The notes below the pieces were generated by a model. It saw only the letters and a program-made list of their open reading frames with translations. It was not told where the DNA came from and made no database searches. This document shows positions 2,994 to 35,921 of a stretch of DNA of 35,921 nucleotides, one piece after another. A program made the translations under genes and the position numbers. The stretch spans positions 1 through 35,921 of the forward strand of contig DVKM01000013.1 of NCBI GenBank assembly GCA_018716015.1. Direction: 5' to 3'. The DNA is from Candidatus Enterenecus stercoripullorum (lineage in GTDB: Bacteria > Bacillota > Clostridia > Oscillospirales > Oscillospiraceae). How positions within the stretch are numbered: the stretch's first letter is position 1; every line of letters begins with the position of its first letter.

Positions 2994-5069
2994 TTATAGC
3001 GGCCAGCTGGGCAGCCAGCGCAGGAAGGCCTGGCTGTACCACAATGGCATATAAAGACCGGTGAGGGCGGGGTAGAACAGGGCGTACAGCGCCACGGCGC
3101 AGCCGGTGAAGCCGTACACCGCCAGCCGGTAGCCCCGGCGCCGCCGGGTGAACATGTCGTTCATCAGATAGGTGATGGCGAACACCAGAAACAGGATGGT
3201 GGGGAAGTAGTGGTAGGCGAACAGGATGCGCCCGATGAACAGCCAGGGGACGAGCTGGGACAGGATGGCGATGAGGATCAGCAGCCCCCGCCCGCTCTTG
3301 CGCCGGATGGTCTGGATGAGCACGGCAAAGAAGGCCAGCAGTCCCTCCCAGGACACCAGGGGATTGTTGAAGGAGGCAAACAGGCTCTTGACGCCCAGGG
3401 TATTGGCGTAGTCCAGGTCCCGGTAGTACAGGATGGGCCGGCCGTCGAAGATCCACTGATACCAGTAGGACTCGTAGGGGTGGGGGGTGTGGACCCCCTG
3501 GTGGTAAGTGAGCATGAACACCTGGTTGTCCCACACGATGCCCAGCAGGCTTTGCAGGGTGAGCTGGGTGCCGTCCCGGGCTGCGGCGGCAGTGACGTAG
3601 GGGAGATAGGCAGCCACGTAAATACAGATGGGAATGAAAACGAAAAATATAACAGACAGTGCGATAGTGCCCGCCACATAGGCGCCAAACCGGGGCAGGG
3701 AGGCATATTCCAGACTGCTTTCCTGTTCGTCGGCCAGCTTTTGCCACTCCCGGCGCTTGAAAATGAGGCCCAGCAGCCACAGCAGGGCCAGACCTGCCCC
3801 GGCGTATACCACCGTCCACTTGCTGGCGCAGCCGATACCCCAGAACAGCCCGCACAAAAACAGGGAGGGCACGGACTTGCGCAGCTTGGCCCCTGCCGGG
3901 ACGGTGAGCCAGCGGTACATGAAATAGTAGGACACCAGGATGAAGAACACCCCGTAGGTGTCGATGGTGGCGATGCGGGTCTGCACCAGGTGCATGAAGT
4001 CAAAGGCGAACAGGCAGGTGCCGCACACAGCCACGGGGGTCTTGCCGAACAGATTTTTTAGAAAAACATAGAGAACGGGCAGCATGAGCACGCCGAACAG
4101 GGCGCCCATGAACCGCCAGCCGAAGGGGGTCATGCCGAACAGCAGGATGCCCAGGGAGATGATGAGTTTGCCCAGGGGCGGGTGGGACACCTCGTAGGGA
4201 TAGATGTTATTCAGGTGCTCCAGGGCGGTGCGGGGGTGGTAGATCTCGTCAAAATAGGAGGAGTTCATATAGGTGGCCTTGTCCGCCCACACGTCGGACT
4301 CGTCGAACAGCGCCTCGCCGCCGGAGGACACATACTGGGGCACCAGGGGCTCCCCGTTATGCCACAGGGCCAGCTCCGCCAGCCACAGCCCTTCGTACCG
4401 CTGCACCGAGCCGGCGGAGATGCGCCACATGCCGGCGGTGATGGGGCCGTGGGCCTGCTCCTCATCCTCGCCCGGCTGGGTCAGGTCCATCACCTCCCAC
4501 TTCAGCAGGGTGTTGTAGGCCTGGTCCAGGGTAATGCTCTGCCAGCTTTCCCCGTTGTCCGGGGAGTATTCCAGCCGGTAGCTGCCAGAGCCCAGGGTGG
4601 TGTAGTAGGAGAGCTTGTCCACCGTTACCGGCTGGCTGAAGGAGAAGGTGAAGGAGGTGCCTTGCTGGAAAACGGTGTAGGTCTGGGGCACGTCAAAGTC
4701 GCCCAGGCGGAAGAAGGCGGTGGCGGCATACACCACCGTGATCAGCAGCATGGGCAGCACGTCCCGCCTCTGGAAAGGATGCCGCTTCAGGGTGAGGGTC
4801 ATCTGCCGGGGCCTGGCCCGGGTCTCCGCCATGGCGATCCACTCCAGGGAGTGGGGCCGGGGCTTGAGACAGTGCCAGTAGTAGAGGAAGAAGGCCAGGC
4901 AGACGGCCAGGGCCACCAGCACCCAGACGGCGGCGGGGGCCAGGTTGCCGAAGAACCAGGACAGCCCGTAGGAAACGGCATCCCACGCAGCGGCAATCCC
5001 CCCGCCCTGAGATGGGGAGGGCGAGGCGGACAGGGCAAGGCCGGGCAATGGCAAGATCAAACTGTTCAT
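2994..5069 (-). CDS. Membrane phospholipid-carrier glycosyltransferase, protein O-mannosyltransferase (GT39)-like
   Basis: Multi-TM protein with PMT-type stretches (SYFDEIYHPRTALEHLNNIYPYEVSHPPLGKLIISLGILLFGMTPFGWRFMGALFGVLMLPVLY), discoidin-like extracellular segment, and a conserved C-terminal block (YHYFPTILFLVFAITYLM). Confidence 0.85.
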   Translation of the reverse strand: MNSLILPLPGLALSASPSPSQGGGIAAAWDAVSYGLSWFFGNLAPAAVWVLVALAVCLAFFLYYWHCLKPRPHSLEWIAMAETRARPRQMTLTLKRHPFQRRDVLPMLLITVVYAATAFFRLGDFDVPQTYTVFQQGTSFTFSFSQPVTVDKLSYYTTLGSGSYRLEYSPDNGESWQSITLDQAYNTLLKWEVMDLTQPGEDEEQAHGPITAGMWRISAGSVQRYEGLWLAELALWHNGEPLVPQYVSSGGEALFDESDVWADKATYMNSSYFDEIYHPRTALEHLNNIYPYEVSHPPLGKLIISLGILLFGMTPFGWRFMGALFGVLMLPVLYVFLKNLFGKTPVAVCGTCLFAFDFMHLVQTRIATIDTYGVFFILVSYYFMYRWLTVPAGAKLRKSVPSLFLCGLFWGIGCASKWTVVYAGAGLALLWLLGLIFKRREWQKLADEQESSLEYASLPRFGAYVAGTIALSVIFFVFIPICIYVAAYLPYVTAAAARDGTQLTLQSLLGIVWDNQVFMLTYHQGVHTPHPYESYWYQWIFDGRPILYYRDLDYANTLGVKSLFASFNNPLVSWEGLLAFFAVLIQTIRRKSGRGLLILIAILSQLVPWLFIGRILFAYHYFPTILFLVFAITYLMNDMFTRRRRGYRLAVYGFTGCAVALYALFYPALTGLYMPLWYSQAFLRWLPSWPL

Positions 5070-5268
5070 GACAGCCTCCTATCGCTGGTGGAACAGCACA
5101 TGGTTTTGATACCTGTTTATCATACTACGAAACCGGGCGAAAGGAAAGTATTTCTTTCAAACGCCGGGGGGTGGGGACAGGATTTTTAGCAATCCATTCA
5201 TTCTGCTGCGAAAACTGCCGCTGAATTTTGCAGACAGAAACATTCACATTTCGTTTACAACTGGCCTA

Positions 5269-5297
5269 TTGACATTCTGTCCGGCAAGTGGTACAGT
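5269..5297 (+). promoter_or_regulatory. Predicted sigma-A promoter for hrcA operon
   Basis: TTGACA-17 nt-TACAGT immediately upstream of CIRCE. Confidence 0.8.
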
Positions 5298-5301
5298 ATC
5301 A

Positions 5302-5328
5302 TTAGCACTCAGGTAAGAAGAGTGCTAA
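5302..5328 (+). promoter_or_regulatory. CIRCE element (HrcA operator)
   Basis: Exact TTAGCACTC-N9-GAGTGCTAA. Confidence 0.97.
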
Positions 5329-31164: not shown

Positions 31165-33678
31165 TCAGGACGCGCAGCTCTCGCACTCCTCCACCTCCAG
31201 GGACTTGGAGCGCACGTAGTAGATGGTCTTCACCCCGCTGCGCCAGGCCAGCAGGTACAGATCCAGCACCTGGCGCATGGTAAAGTCGTTGGTGATGTAA
31301 AGGTTCATGCTCTGGGCCTGGTCCACATGGCGCTGGCGCGCCCCGCAGGCCCGCACGCTCCAGCTCTGGTCGATGAGGTGGGCGTTCTTGTAGTACCAGT
31401 AGGTGGCGGGGGACAGCTCGGGGGCCACCCGGGGGAGCATGCTGCCCTTCTTCTCCTCCAGGAAGAAGCGGTTCATCACCGGGTCCAGCCCGGCGGTGGT
31501 GCCCGCGAGAATGCTGGTGCTGGAAGTGGGGGCCACGGCCAGCAGGTAGGCGTTGCGCATGCCCTGGCGCGCCACGGTGGCGGCCAGCTCCCGCCACTCG
31601 GGAGAGGAGTAGCCCCGCTTTTCAAAATAGGCCCCCGTCTGCCAGTCGCTGCCCTCAAAGTAGGCGTAGCTGCCCTTCTCCCCGGCAATGGCGGTGGAGG
31701 CGGCGATGGCAGCGTGGTTGATGCGCTCAAACACCCGGTCGGCGAAGGCCAAGTGTTCCTCGCTCTCCCAGGAGATGCCCCGCTTGGCCAGCATGTGGTG
31801 GTAACCGCTCACCCCCAGGCCGATGCTGCGGTAGCGCCGGTTGGTGAGCTTGGCGTAGGGCAGGGGGTAGAAGTTCAGGTCGATGACGTTGTCCAGGGCC
31901 CGCACCACGGTGCCCACCAGCTCATGGAGGTAGGCGTCGTCCTCCACCGGGATGTTGCCCAGCACCAGGGAGGCCAGGTTACACACCACGAAATCCCCGG
32001 GCCGGGTAATGGTGACCACCACCGTGTCCCCGTCCTGGGTGCGCACTTCGGTGGAGACGCTCTCGATGGGGGACATGTTCTGGGCGATCTCGGTGCACAG
32101 GTTGGAGCAGTAGATGATACCTTTGTGGCCGTTGGGGTTGGCCCGGTTCACCGCGTCCCGGTTGAAGGTGAAAGGGGTGCCCGTCTCCACGGCGGACTTG
32201 AGCACCAGACGGATGATCTCCTTGACGGTGACGGTGCGCTTGGAGATGCGGGGATCGTTCACACACTCCAGGTAGCGCCGCTCCCACTCTTCCCCATAGT
32301 AGTCCTCCAGGGCGTAGCCCTTGACAGCGAGCACCTCGTGGGGGCACAGAAGGTGCCAGGGCTGGTTGAGATCCTCCTGGGCCAGACGCCAGAACAGGTC
32401 GGGATAGCACACCGCGGGGAAGATGTCGTGGGCCTTCATCCGATCGTCGCCGTTGTTGGTGCGCAGCTGGAGAAACTCCGGCAGGTCCTTGTGCCAGGCG
32501 TCCAGGTACACCGCCGCCGCCCCCTGGCGCATGCCCAGCTGGTCCACCGCCACGGCGGTGTCGTTGACCAGCTTGATCCACCGGATCACGCCGCCGGCCG
32601 CCCCCTCAAAGCCCCGGATGCTGCCACCTGTGGCCCGCACCTTGCCGAAGTACAGCCCCATGCCGCCACCAAATTTGCTCACCTGGGCAAAGTTGTCGAT
32701 GGAGCGGTAGATGCCCTCCAAACTGTCGGGCACGGTGTCGATGAAGCAGCTGGACAGCTGGTGGTAGGGCTTGCGGGCGTTGGACAGGGTGGGGGTGGCC
32801 ATGGTCACCTCCATTTTGCTGAGCATATCGTAGAATTTTTTCACCCAGCCCAGCCGGTCGGTTTTCTCCTCCATAGCCAGGTGCAGGGCGATGCCCAGGT
32901 ACATTTCCTGGGGAGTCTCCAAGGGCACCCGCTGGTGGGTGCGGATGACATAGCGCTTGAGCAGCAGGTCCAGCCCCGCATAGGTGAGCAGTTTGTCCCG
33001 CTCCGGGCGGAGAAAGCGCGCGGCCTGCTCCAGCTCCTGCTGGGAGTAGTGCTCCAGGATGTAGGGGCCGTACAGCCCCTCATCGGTGAGGTAGCGCAGC
33101 TTGTCATAGAAGCTATGGATGCCCCGCCGCGCCAGTTCCCCGTCCAGCTCCTGCCCGAAGCGGTAGCTGAGCAGGCGGGCGGCGATGAACTCCCACCGAG
33201 GGGCCTGCTGGGTGGTGAGCTCCACCGCCGCCTTCACCAGCGCGCCCAGCGCCTCCTGCCGGGACATGCCGTCCTTTCGGAAGCTGGAGAATTTACCGCT
33301 CAGGGCGGTGAGGGAGTACGCCTCCTGGGGAAAATCCCGCTGGATGTCCATCAGGCACGCCTCCAGTCCGGGATCCCCCACCCCGTCGGCCAGCGCTTTG
33401 CGGGCCGCACGCAGCTGGGAGCGGTTCTGCCGGTACAGAATATAGCTCTTGGCTACGGCGTAAAAGCCGCCTGCCATCAGCACCTGCTCCACCTGGTCCT
33501 GGATGGCCTCCACCGTGTGGGGGCCATCCCCCATGGCCTGTTCCACGGCGTGGAGCAGCCCCTGCAAGGTGTCCCCATCCCAGGCCTGCCCCACGCTGAC
33601 AAAGGCCTTCTCCATGGCCGCAATGATTTTTTGGGCGTCATAGGTCTGTACGGCGCCGCTTCGCTTGATCACTTCCAT
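31165..33678 (-). CDS. nrdA: Class I ribonucleoside-diphosphate reductase alpha subunit
   Basis: ATP-cone start MEVIKRSGAVQTYDAQKIIAAMEKAF, catalytic NLCTEI, C-terminal redox CESCAS; RBS aggtgggcag. Confidence 0.95.
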   Translation of the reverse strand: MEVIKRSGAVQTYDAQKIIAAMEKAFVSVGQAWDGDTLQGLLHAVEQAMGDGPHTVEAIQDQVEQVLMAGGFYAVAKSYILYRQNRSQLRAARKALADGVGDPGLEACLMDIQRDFPQEAYSLTALSGKFSSFRKDGMSRQEALGALVKAAVELTTQQAPRWEFIAARLLSYRFGQELDGELARRGIHSFYDKLRYLTDEGLYGPYILEHYSQQELEQAARFLRPERDKLLTYAGLDLLLKRYVIRTHQRVPLETPQEMYLGIALHLAMEEKTDRLGWVKKFYDMLSKMEVTMATPTLSNARKPYHQLSSCFIDTVPDSLEGIYRSIDNFAQVSKFGGGMGLYFGKVRATGGSIRGFEGAAGGVIRWIKLVNDTAVAVDQLGMRQGAAAVYLDAWHKDLPEFLQLRTNNGDDRMKAHDIFPAVCYPDLFWRLAQEDLNQPWHLLCPHEVLAVKGYALEDYYGEEWERRYLECVNDPRISKRTVTVKEIIRLVLKSAVETGTPFTFNRDAVNRANPNGHKGIIYCSNLCTEIAQNMSPIESVSTEVRTQDGDTVVVTITRPGDFVVCNLASLVLGNIPVEDDAYLHELVGTVVRALDNVIDLNFYPLPYAKLTNRRYRSIGLGVSGYHHMLAKRGISWESEEHLAFADRVFERINHAAIAASTAIAGEKGSYAYFEGSDWQTGAYFEKRGYSSPEWRELAATVARQGMRNAYLLAVAPTSSTSILAGTTAGLDPVMNRFFLEEKKGSMLPRVAPELSPATYWYYKNAHLIDQSWSVRACGARQRHVDQAQSMNLYITNDFTMRQVLDLYLLAWRSGVKTIYYVRSKSLEVEECESCAS

Positions 33679-33785
33679 CTGCCCACCTGCTCTCTGTGTT
33701 TGATTTGCCGGAACGCGCCTGGCGACTGGGAACGCGCTGGCCGCGGGTCCCCGCACCGCGGGGAGAAAATGTTGACGTAACAGGC

Positions 33786-33976: not shown

Positions 33977-35921
33977 TATGGCGGAGAAACAGGGGATTGC
34001 TCTGACCCGGATCCCAGGGATTGGCCAGGCCCGGGCGGGCAAGCTGGCCAAGCTGGGGCTGGAGCGGCTGGAGGATCTGCTGGACTACTTCCCCTCCCGC
34101 TATGAGGACCGCCGGGGGGTGTACACCGTCCGGGAGGCCCCGGTGGGGGAGAGCTGCTGCATCTGCGCCATGGTGGCCCACACGCCCACCCTCTCCCGCA
34201 TTCGCAAGGGGCTGGAGCTGGTGAAGGTGCAGGCGGTGGACCACACCGGGGCGCTGAACCTGACCTTTTTCAACCAGGCCTATCTGAAGGATACCCTGCG
34301 CCCGGGGGAGAGCTATGTGTTTTACGGCCGGGTGGAGGCTCTGGGGCGGAGACGGTCTATGACCAACCCGGTCTTCGAGCGGGAGGGGGCGGGCCAGGTG
34401 ACGGGCCGCATCCTGCCCATCTATCCCCTGACGGCGGGGATCACCAACCGCTTGGTGGCGGACCTGGCCCGGCGGGCCCTGGAGCTGTACGCCCCCCGGC
34501 GGGAGGAGACCATCCCCGAGCAGGTGCGGCTGGCCCACAGCCTATGCCAGGTGGAGTTTGCCTATCAGAACATCCATTTCCCCGAGAATTTTGAGGCGCT
34601 GGAGATCGCCCGCCGCCGGATGATCTTTGAGGAGCTGCTCACCCTCACCTGCGGCATGGCCCTTTTGAAGGACCGCCGGGGCCAGGGGGCGGGCCGTGTC
34701 CTGTGCCGGGGCAGCGTGGACGAGTTCGTCCGGCTGCTCCCCTTCGCCCCCACCGGGGCCCAGCGCCGGGCCATGGAGGACATGGCTGGGGATCTGGCTT
34801 CCGGACGGGCCATGAACCGGCTGGTCCAGGGGGACGTGGGTTCGGGCAAGACGGCGGTGGCCGCCTTTGGGGCCTGGATGTGCGCCCAAAACGGCTGCCA
34901 GTGCGCCCTGATGGCCCCCACTGAGCTGCTGGCTGAGCAGCACGCCAAAACCATGGACGAGATGCTCTCCCCCGCCGGGGTGCGGGTGGGGCTGCTCACC
35001 GGGTCGGTGAAGGGGGCGGCGAGAAACAGTTTGCTGGCCGCCTTGACGGCGGGAGAACTGGACTTGATCGTGGGCACCCATGCCCTGTTCTCCCAGGGGG
35101 TGGAGTACGCGAACCTGGGGCTGGTCATCGCCGACGAGCAGCACCGCTTCGGCGTGGCCCAGCGAGCGGCCCTGGCCGCGAAAGGGGCCACGCCGGGGGC
35201 CCCATCGCAGATGGGGCGCCGCGGAAGCGGCGAAGGCGGGGGGAATTCATTTTCCCCCGCCGCAGATGAAACCGGCTTGGGGGTCCCCGCTTCGGCCTAC
35301 CGCAGTGGGGAGGCCCAGCGAGCGGCCCTGGCCGCGAAAGGGGCTGATATAGGCCATGCCCTCCAAACACATATGCTCGTCATGTCCGCCACCCCGATCC
35401 CCAGGACGCTGGCCCTCATCATCTACGGGGATCTGGACGTATCCGTGATGGACGAGCTGCCCCCCGGCCGCACCCCCGTGGCCACCTATGTGGTGGGGGA
35501 GGACAAGCGGCAGCGCCTGTACGGCTTTGTCCGGGCTCAGGCGGCCCAGGGCCGGCAGGTGTACATCATCTGCCCGGCGGTGGACGAGGGGGAGGCCGGC
35601 CCTCAGTGGGGGCAGGAGGAGGGCTCCGCCATGGACCTGAAAGCGGTGACCACCTACGCCAAAGACCTCCAGGCAAAGGTATTCCCCGACCTGCGGGTGG
35701 GGCTGGTCCACGGCAAGATGAAGAGCAAGGAGAAGGACGCGGTTATGACTGCTTTTGCCGCCGGGGAACTGGATGTGCTGGTATCCACCACCGTCATCGA
35801 GGTGGGGGTGGACGTGCCTAACGCCGCCCTGATGATCGTGGAGAACGCCGACCGCTTCGGCCTTTCCCAGCTCCACCAGCTGCGGGGCCGGGTGGGCCGT
35901 GGCAAGCACCAGTCCTACTGC
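33977..35921 (+). CDS. recG: ATP-dependent DNA helicase RecG (truncated at window end; absent from supplied ORF track)
   Basis: MAEKQGIALTRIPGIGQARAGKLAKLGLERLEDLLDYFPSRYEDRR...RLVQGDVGSGKTAVA..MAPTELLAEQHA..LVIADEQHRFGVAQRAAL..VMSATPIPRTLALIIYGDLDVSVMDELPPGRTPV..STTVIEVGVDVPNA..QLHQLRGRVGRGKHQSYC. Confidence 0.96.
35156..35188 (+). repeat. 33-bp exact direct repeat, copy 1, in recG
   Basis: ggcccagcgagcggccctggccgcgaaaggggc. Confidence 0.95.
35312..35344 (+). repeat. 33-bp exact direct repeat, copy 2, in recG (offset 156 bp)
   Basis: Identical to 35156-35188; offset is 52 codons so the frame is kept. Confidence 0.95.

Follow-up and report, generated by a model that had tools for sequence, protein, structure and literature searches.

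An in-frame insert in recG of Candidatus Enterenecus stercoripullorum as a copy of an apparently undescribed family of small structured elements with junction-matched guides

The contig DVKM01000013.1 of Candidatus Enterenecus stercoripullorum (assembly GCA_018716015.1), which we analyzed over its entire length of 35,921 nucleotides and call the window (contig C108 of its assembly), ends within recG, a helicase gene interrupted by an in-frame insert. This insert appears to be one copy of a family of small, structured, mobile DNA elements in gut bacteria that is apparently undescribed. At the locus, the 33-bp segment GGCCCAGCGAGCGGCCCTGGCCGCGAAAGGGGC occurs twice as exact copies spaced 156 bp apart, as an earlier note based on the letters of this DNA had claimed, and the inverted repeats given there (ccccatc/gatgggg and ggcggggg...cccccgcc) are present as hairpins H1 and H4 (Table 1). 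A 23-bp piece of the repeat has no further match in the window at up to three mismatches, where shuffled sequences are expected to give 0. The recG frame is open across the insert (...DEQHRFGVAQRAALAAKGA-TPGAPSQ...RSGE-AQRAALAAKGADIGHALQTHMLVMSATPIPRT). The best solved relative of the encoded protein is T. maritima RecG (1GM5, E 9.6e-123), and its alignment with the insert-bearing protein runs to 1GM5 residue 515 and resumes at 519. The insert is thus placed in the short linker from motif II (DEQH) to motif III (SATPIPRT), where the earlier note had located it. An AlphaFold2 prediction of RecG from 16 sequences (mean pLDDT 58, insert region <50) was too weak for loop placement.

Between the repeat copies lies a core of 116 nt, whose match to the family covariance model described below must be read knowing that this copy was among the sequences used to build the model. 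Hairpin H3, present in other family copies, is missing here. The core is directly preceded by an 11-nt guide, GGGCCACGCCG, which pairs exactly with the insertion junction CGGCGTGGCCC (35150-35160), made up of CGGCGT from the flank and GGCCC from the repeat.

Table 1. Features of recG and its insert in the window
Feature	Position	Strand	Remarks
recG, host gene, cut by contig end	33978..35921	+	Pfam RecG_wedge, DEAD, Helicase_C
5' flank CGGCGT	35150..35155	+	last 6 nt ahead of insertion junction; complements guide 3' half
Direct repeat copy 1	35156..35188	+	adjoins gene body; reads AQRAALAAKGA
Guide GGGCCACGCCG	35185..35195	+	exact reverse complement of 35150-35160
Structured core	35196..35311	+	family-defining; covariance model R1 match 79 bits
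Hairpin H1	35200..35216	+	CCCCATC-GCA-GATGGGG
Hairpin H2	35217..35232	+	CGCCGC-GGAA-GCGGCG
Hairpin H4	35235..35261	+	GGCGGGGG...CCCCCGCC, AATTCATTT-type loop; stem pairs co-vary in family
GATGAAA	35265..35271	+	possible pseudoknot partner of TTCAT in H4 loop, from sequence reading
Terminal hairpin H5	35285..35310	+	CCCC...GGGG; stops 1 nt short of right junction
Direct repeat copy 2	35312..35344	+	followed by native recG linker and motif III

Among 60 relatives searched at the DNA level, the recG insert is present in three further genomes, G020 (two tandem units), G003 (one unit and a partial one) and G035. In contrast, the translated recGs of 15 other relatives in the genus have only the short linker, AQRAALAEKG-xxxx-PHVLVMSATPIPRT or similar, and the insert is thus not family-wide. 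The four carriers are mutually closest in the RecG alignment (77-82% identity to the window, versus 66-71% for the others), so that a single insertion in their common ancestor is likely. All five recG units compared are exactly 156 bp long and stop-free in the recG frame, and between the window and G035 19 changed codons are nonsynonymous versus 6 synonymous; by this comparison the frame is conserved and the encoded peptide is drifting. Three other genomes have the insert in recG, and complete genomes (AP025582.1 and AP018533.1) contain members of the family; on this comparative evidence, the insert is not an assembly artefact.

The core is not confined to recG, and on its own matches additional places in the relatives' DNA. 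A covariance model, R1, built from 35 copies, matches 37 of 42 genomes of the genus with up to 36 copies per genome, finds 8 places in the window's own genome (E<1e-7) and extends to other families of the order Oscillospirales. This dispersal, together with the insert-free recG of most relatives and the uniform units just described, supports the earlier proposal of a palindromic mobile element that inserted into recG with duplication of a segment and without loss of the frame. In a wider contig search with a sequence pattern of the first hairpins, 103 stretches of genome contigs were retrieved, mostly labelled as Flavonifractor, Pseudoflavonifractor, Intestinimonas and other Oscillospiraceae and including complete genomes, as well as 6 phage contigs, of which 5 have the element at the end of the terminase gene. 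In the phage contigs L076, L077, L079 and L081, the gene for the terminase large subunit ends in one or two units (near 1.3-1.6 kb or 4.7-5.0 kb). Phages are therefore likely carriers of the element between hosts.

Family cores measure ~115-145 nt and share conserved hairpins. Pairs of the H4 stem have both partners changed in up to 16 of the 35 sequences, whereas H1 and H2 show no variation, in part an effect of the search pattern, which prescribed them. The stems are nearly all Watson-Crick, with 3.8% G-U pairs. No Rfam family was matched, and 20 loci gave neither HEARO nor any other match even at E<5; no description of the family turned up in the literature covered, subscription journals lying outside it.

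Most insertion sites are the 3' ends of conserved genes, namely groES, uvrA, uvrB, rpsI, rplL, pgk, nfo, tsaD, rubrerythrin, phage terminase and others, with names assigned from peptide reading only; an alternative site is antisense at the gene's 5' end (lepA, an S4-domain gene). The common layout runs from the gene body to a carried gene end with guide and core, and then to the displaced native gene end. The core is thus flanked on either side by a copy of the gene end, which often includes the stop and sometimes the terminator; these direct repeats measure ~20-135 bp, in units of ~150-380 bp. Several copies sit beyond the host gene's hairpin terminator, and tandem arrays of units are frequent. 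At lepA in L285 (G132:C74), for example, an antisense tandem pair lies at the start and one unit at the stop (3029-3352, 5210-5322), each element having its own guide and its own duplicated gene end. In-frame residence was seen in recG only, and by this survey recG is an atypical, mid-gene site for the family. The earlier note is supported in its reading of the element, yet it overlooked the junction-complementary guide, the terminal hairpin H5, the gene-end replacement elsewhere and the unusual position in recG.

Of 192 codons that differ within 50 repeat pairs, 142 are changed synonymously, against 22% expected from random changes, and 144 of 223 changes fall at codon position 3; the displaced copy is seldom broken. 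As the displaced copy is no longer read, the two copies must have accumulated these changes as coding sequences. Most simply, the element arrived from another genome together with copy 1, and copy 2 represents the original end of the host gene; on this account, an incoming foreign gene end probably takes the place of the native one. Some pairs are identical, among them that of L109 (100% over 71 bp), so that recent events of local duplication or gene conversion occur as well. Mismatches amount to 5-8% within 30 nt of the junction versus 12-15% beyond, a comparison biased by the edges of local alignments.

In most copies of the family, the guide comprises the 8-17 nt directly 5' of the core and is reverse-complementary to the junction at which its own element is inserted, pairing with ~6 nt of flank and 5-10 nt of repeat. 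Flanking direct repeats were found in 97 of 113 unselected cores. A guide-junction complement of at least 9 nt is present in 63 of these 97 cores versus 9 of 1810 mismatched pairs, and one of at least 11 nt in 52 versus 4. To this we add a set of 54 elements in 24 target genes, chosen for having a guide match. Since these were match-selected, the unselected cores provide the fair test of whether guides exist, and the 54 elements that of their specificity. When junctions in the same gene are compared within this set, the own junction fits the guide better in 90 cases, equally well in 43 and worse in 1. For example, the lepA junctions GGATTTTCC, GGATTTGCC and GGATTTCCC pair with the guides GGAAAATCC, GGCAAATCC and GGGAAATCC, respectively, and guides co-vary with their own junctions across the 24 target genes. 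Among 23 hand-listed target genes, junction position -2 is G in 21 and position +1 is G in 17. No second target-matching segment above control was found inside the core. In L142 and L078, the junction complement runs on imperfectly to ~21-27 nt; guides may originally have been longer than the perfect 8-17 nt.

With these data from comparative sequence work, often on draft genomes, we favor, with moderate confidence, a non-autonomous structured element for which a trans-acting enzyme carries out insertion at a site matched by the guide. The guide would find the junction by base pairing, and the element would insert exactly there, carrying its own copy of the remaining gene so that essential genes survive, while the native gene end would be pushed downstream; the enzyme would be supplied from elsewhere. 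For the pairing itself, we favor folded single-stranded DNA, as in IS608, over RNA, and the rarity of G-U pairs and the copies beyond terminators lean weakly in this direction. As the occupied allele keeps the target intact, the frequent tandem arrays would be explained. In recG, no gene end could be supplied because the site is mid-gene; the insertion would owe its persistence to a unit that is open and, at 156 bp, divisible by three, and would be read as 52 extra residues in the loop between motifs II and III.

Several observations weigh against this mechanism. With the guide window as defined here, 34 of the 97 cores with repeats lack a guide match of at least 9 nt; the G-U argument is weak; no transposition event was observed in the sequence comparison; and the model gives no route by which a new target gene gains a matching guide. 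Furthermore, no enzyme linked to the element or to its copy number was found. G035, with 27 copies, lacks Y1 transposase, reverse transcriptase (RT), IS110, TnpB and IscB alike, and no core lies near any examined gene of these five kinds. Genomes with zero copies hold several of them: Y1 (PF01797), found in 16 of 42 genus genomes, is absent from G000, G003, G035 and G062 and present in the zero-copy genomes G007, G012, G015 and G026. IS110 (PF02371) is absent from G035, G003, G062 and G002, each with at least 15 copies, RT (PF00078) from G000, G020, G035 and G062, and TnpB from several copy-rich genomes; an IscB domain exceeds the cut-off in 1 of 37 genus genomes. We thus rejected all five as the enzyme, as their presence does not track copy number. 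No autonomous copy with an internal gene was detected among the repeat-flanked cores or within up to 6 kb of the repeat-less ones; a contig with three cores turned out to hold lepA with an element at either end, and in the phage contigs only structural genes lie near the cores.

In its topology, the proposed guided insertion matches IS608, whose guide lies 5' of a hairpin and pairs with the left flank that is retained, and whose transposase does not itself read the cleavage site (PMC5934647). The present guide likewise complements the retained left flank, with insertion 3' of it, and subterminal hairpins and non-autonomous palindromic copies are shared with IS200/IS605 and REP/TnpA-REP elements (PMC5934647, PMC8266576). 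However, IS608 has a 4-nt guide for one fixed target and carries no gene end, whereas guides here are longer and specific per site, and many carriers lack the Y1 (HUH) transposase; the examined transposase genes have no core nearby. The IS110 bridge RNA also recognizes its target by base pairing across the insertion point, but it pairs with both strands via two loop segments and requires the IS110 recombinase (PMC11208160), while here a single continuous guide addresses one strand and several rich carriers lack that recombinase. The RT distribution likewise disagrees with a retroelement, either group II or RT-borne. Every known family considered has at least one defining trait that the present combination of features lacks, and we therefore assign the element to none of them.

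An unlikely but more serious competitor than the rest is RNA-guided homing, in which the core would be the guide RNA of a nuclease acting in trans (OMEGA- or Cas9-like) that cuts empty alleles, repair then copying the element from the donor allele, much as yeast WHO elements spread by means of a protein endonuclease. The position of the guide 5' of a structured scaffold, the tandem arrays and the pattern of foreign gene ends would all suit it. The last recalls the WHO elements of Torulaspora and Lachancea yeasts, which swap a gene's 3' end for a donor end, leave the native fragment downstream and form tandem arrays (PMC7282813), and the mobile ORFs in mitochondria of arbuscular mycorrhizal fungi, with a replaced 3' end and a native fragment downstream (PMC3630166); the synonymous divergence of the two copies fits such gene-end replacement. 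Yet those elements encode endonucleases, for which the short units described here have no room; the present family has a hairpin core and a guide instead of a protein gene, and it targets many different genes. Against homing stands above all that the occupied allele retains the full target (flank and repeat copy 1) and would hence be re-cut. The rarity of IscB, the lack of TnpB in several rich genomes and the Rfam result also disfavor it, and separate the family from HEARO/OMEGA RNAs.

Still less probable is an ordinary miniature inverted-repeat transposable element (MITE) or a Rickettsia-type palindromic element, with a long target duplication from a staggered cut and a functionless guide. 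Small, palindromic, multi-copy and non-coding as it is, with one in-frame case and an identical pair such as that of L109, as local duplication would produce, the family has the outward look of one. Rickettsia palindromic elements are ~150-bp repeats found in frame within unrelated protein genes and described as encoding a conserved peptide (PMC10969869). The comparison drawn in the earlier note is an analogy only; here the peptide is unconserved, and most copies occupy gene ends, where a replaced end and a guide accompany them. Moreover, no terminal inverted repeats of the whole element were seen; in place of the short target duplication of a known IS, which would mark a MITE, the repeat copies are long, variable and synonymously diverged, and the guide-junction match is junction-specific and far above chance.

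It is improbable that template switching within a quasi-palindrome, in which replication corrects one arm against the other, upholds the guide match in place of selection for target pairing. Near-perfect stems with few G-U pairs would then arise without an enzyme, but mobility into 24 genes and gene-end replacement would stay unaccounted for, as would the fact that one arm always ends beside the core. A one-off segment duplication or assembly artefact in recG, which would explain the direct repeat and nothing more, is ruled out by the four genomes, the tandem variants, the dispersed copies and the complete genomes. A self-splicing intron, whose P1/P10 in group I the guide-junction pairing resembles, was rejected as well: the core is too small, the splice-site U-G pair and any Rfam intron match are absent, and a frame-keeping, stop-free unit in recG would be needless for an efficiently spliced intron.

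Some copies depart from the common form. On the minus strand of L259 (98-238 and 3799-3939), two copies lie between phage structural genes, from just after a stop codon to the next ribosome-binding site; they differ in H1, show neither a repeat nor a guide, and possibly represent a different or older form. G069, which belongs to a different family of the order, has at least 15 copies (L287-L298), mostly intergenic, with a degenerate H1 and mostly without gene-end repeats; this looks like an amplified side branch. The truncated copies L147, L148 and L162 keep the gene end, guide and first hairpin and lack the rest and the second repeat; they are perhaps deletion remnants. In the window, a minus-strand ORF of 863 aa (31165-33756) upstream of recG resembles, by eye only, a ribonucleotide reductase.

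Tentatively, and with less assurance than the mechanism itself, we see in this family a bacterial selfish element without a protein gene, composed of a structured nucleic acid, a guide re-matched for each target gene and a spare gene end, which would combine guided insertion into essential genes with their simultaneous repair. The recG copy provides a helicase core in which a non-conserved insert of 52 residues has outlasted divergence into four species. If the guide directs insertion, gut Oscillospirales and phages would harbor a natural, very small and retargetable insertion system that is tolerated in essential genes. As guide, junction and carried gene end can all be read from sequence, the switching of target genes by a non-coding element is testable with series of strains.
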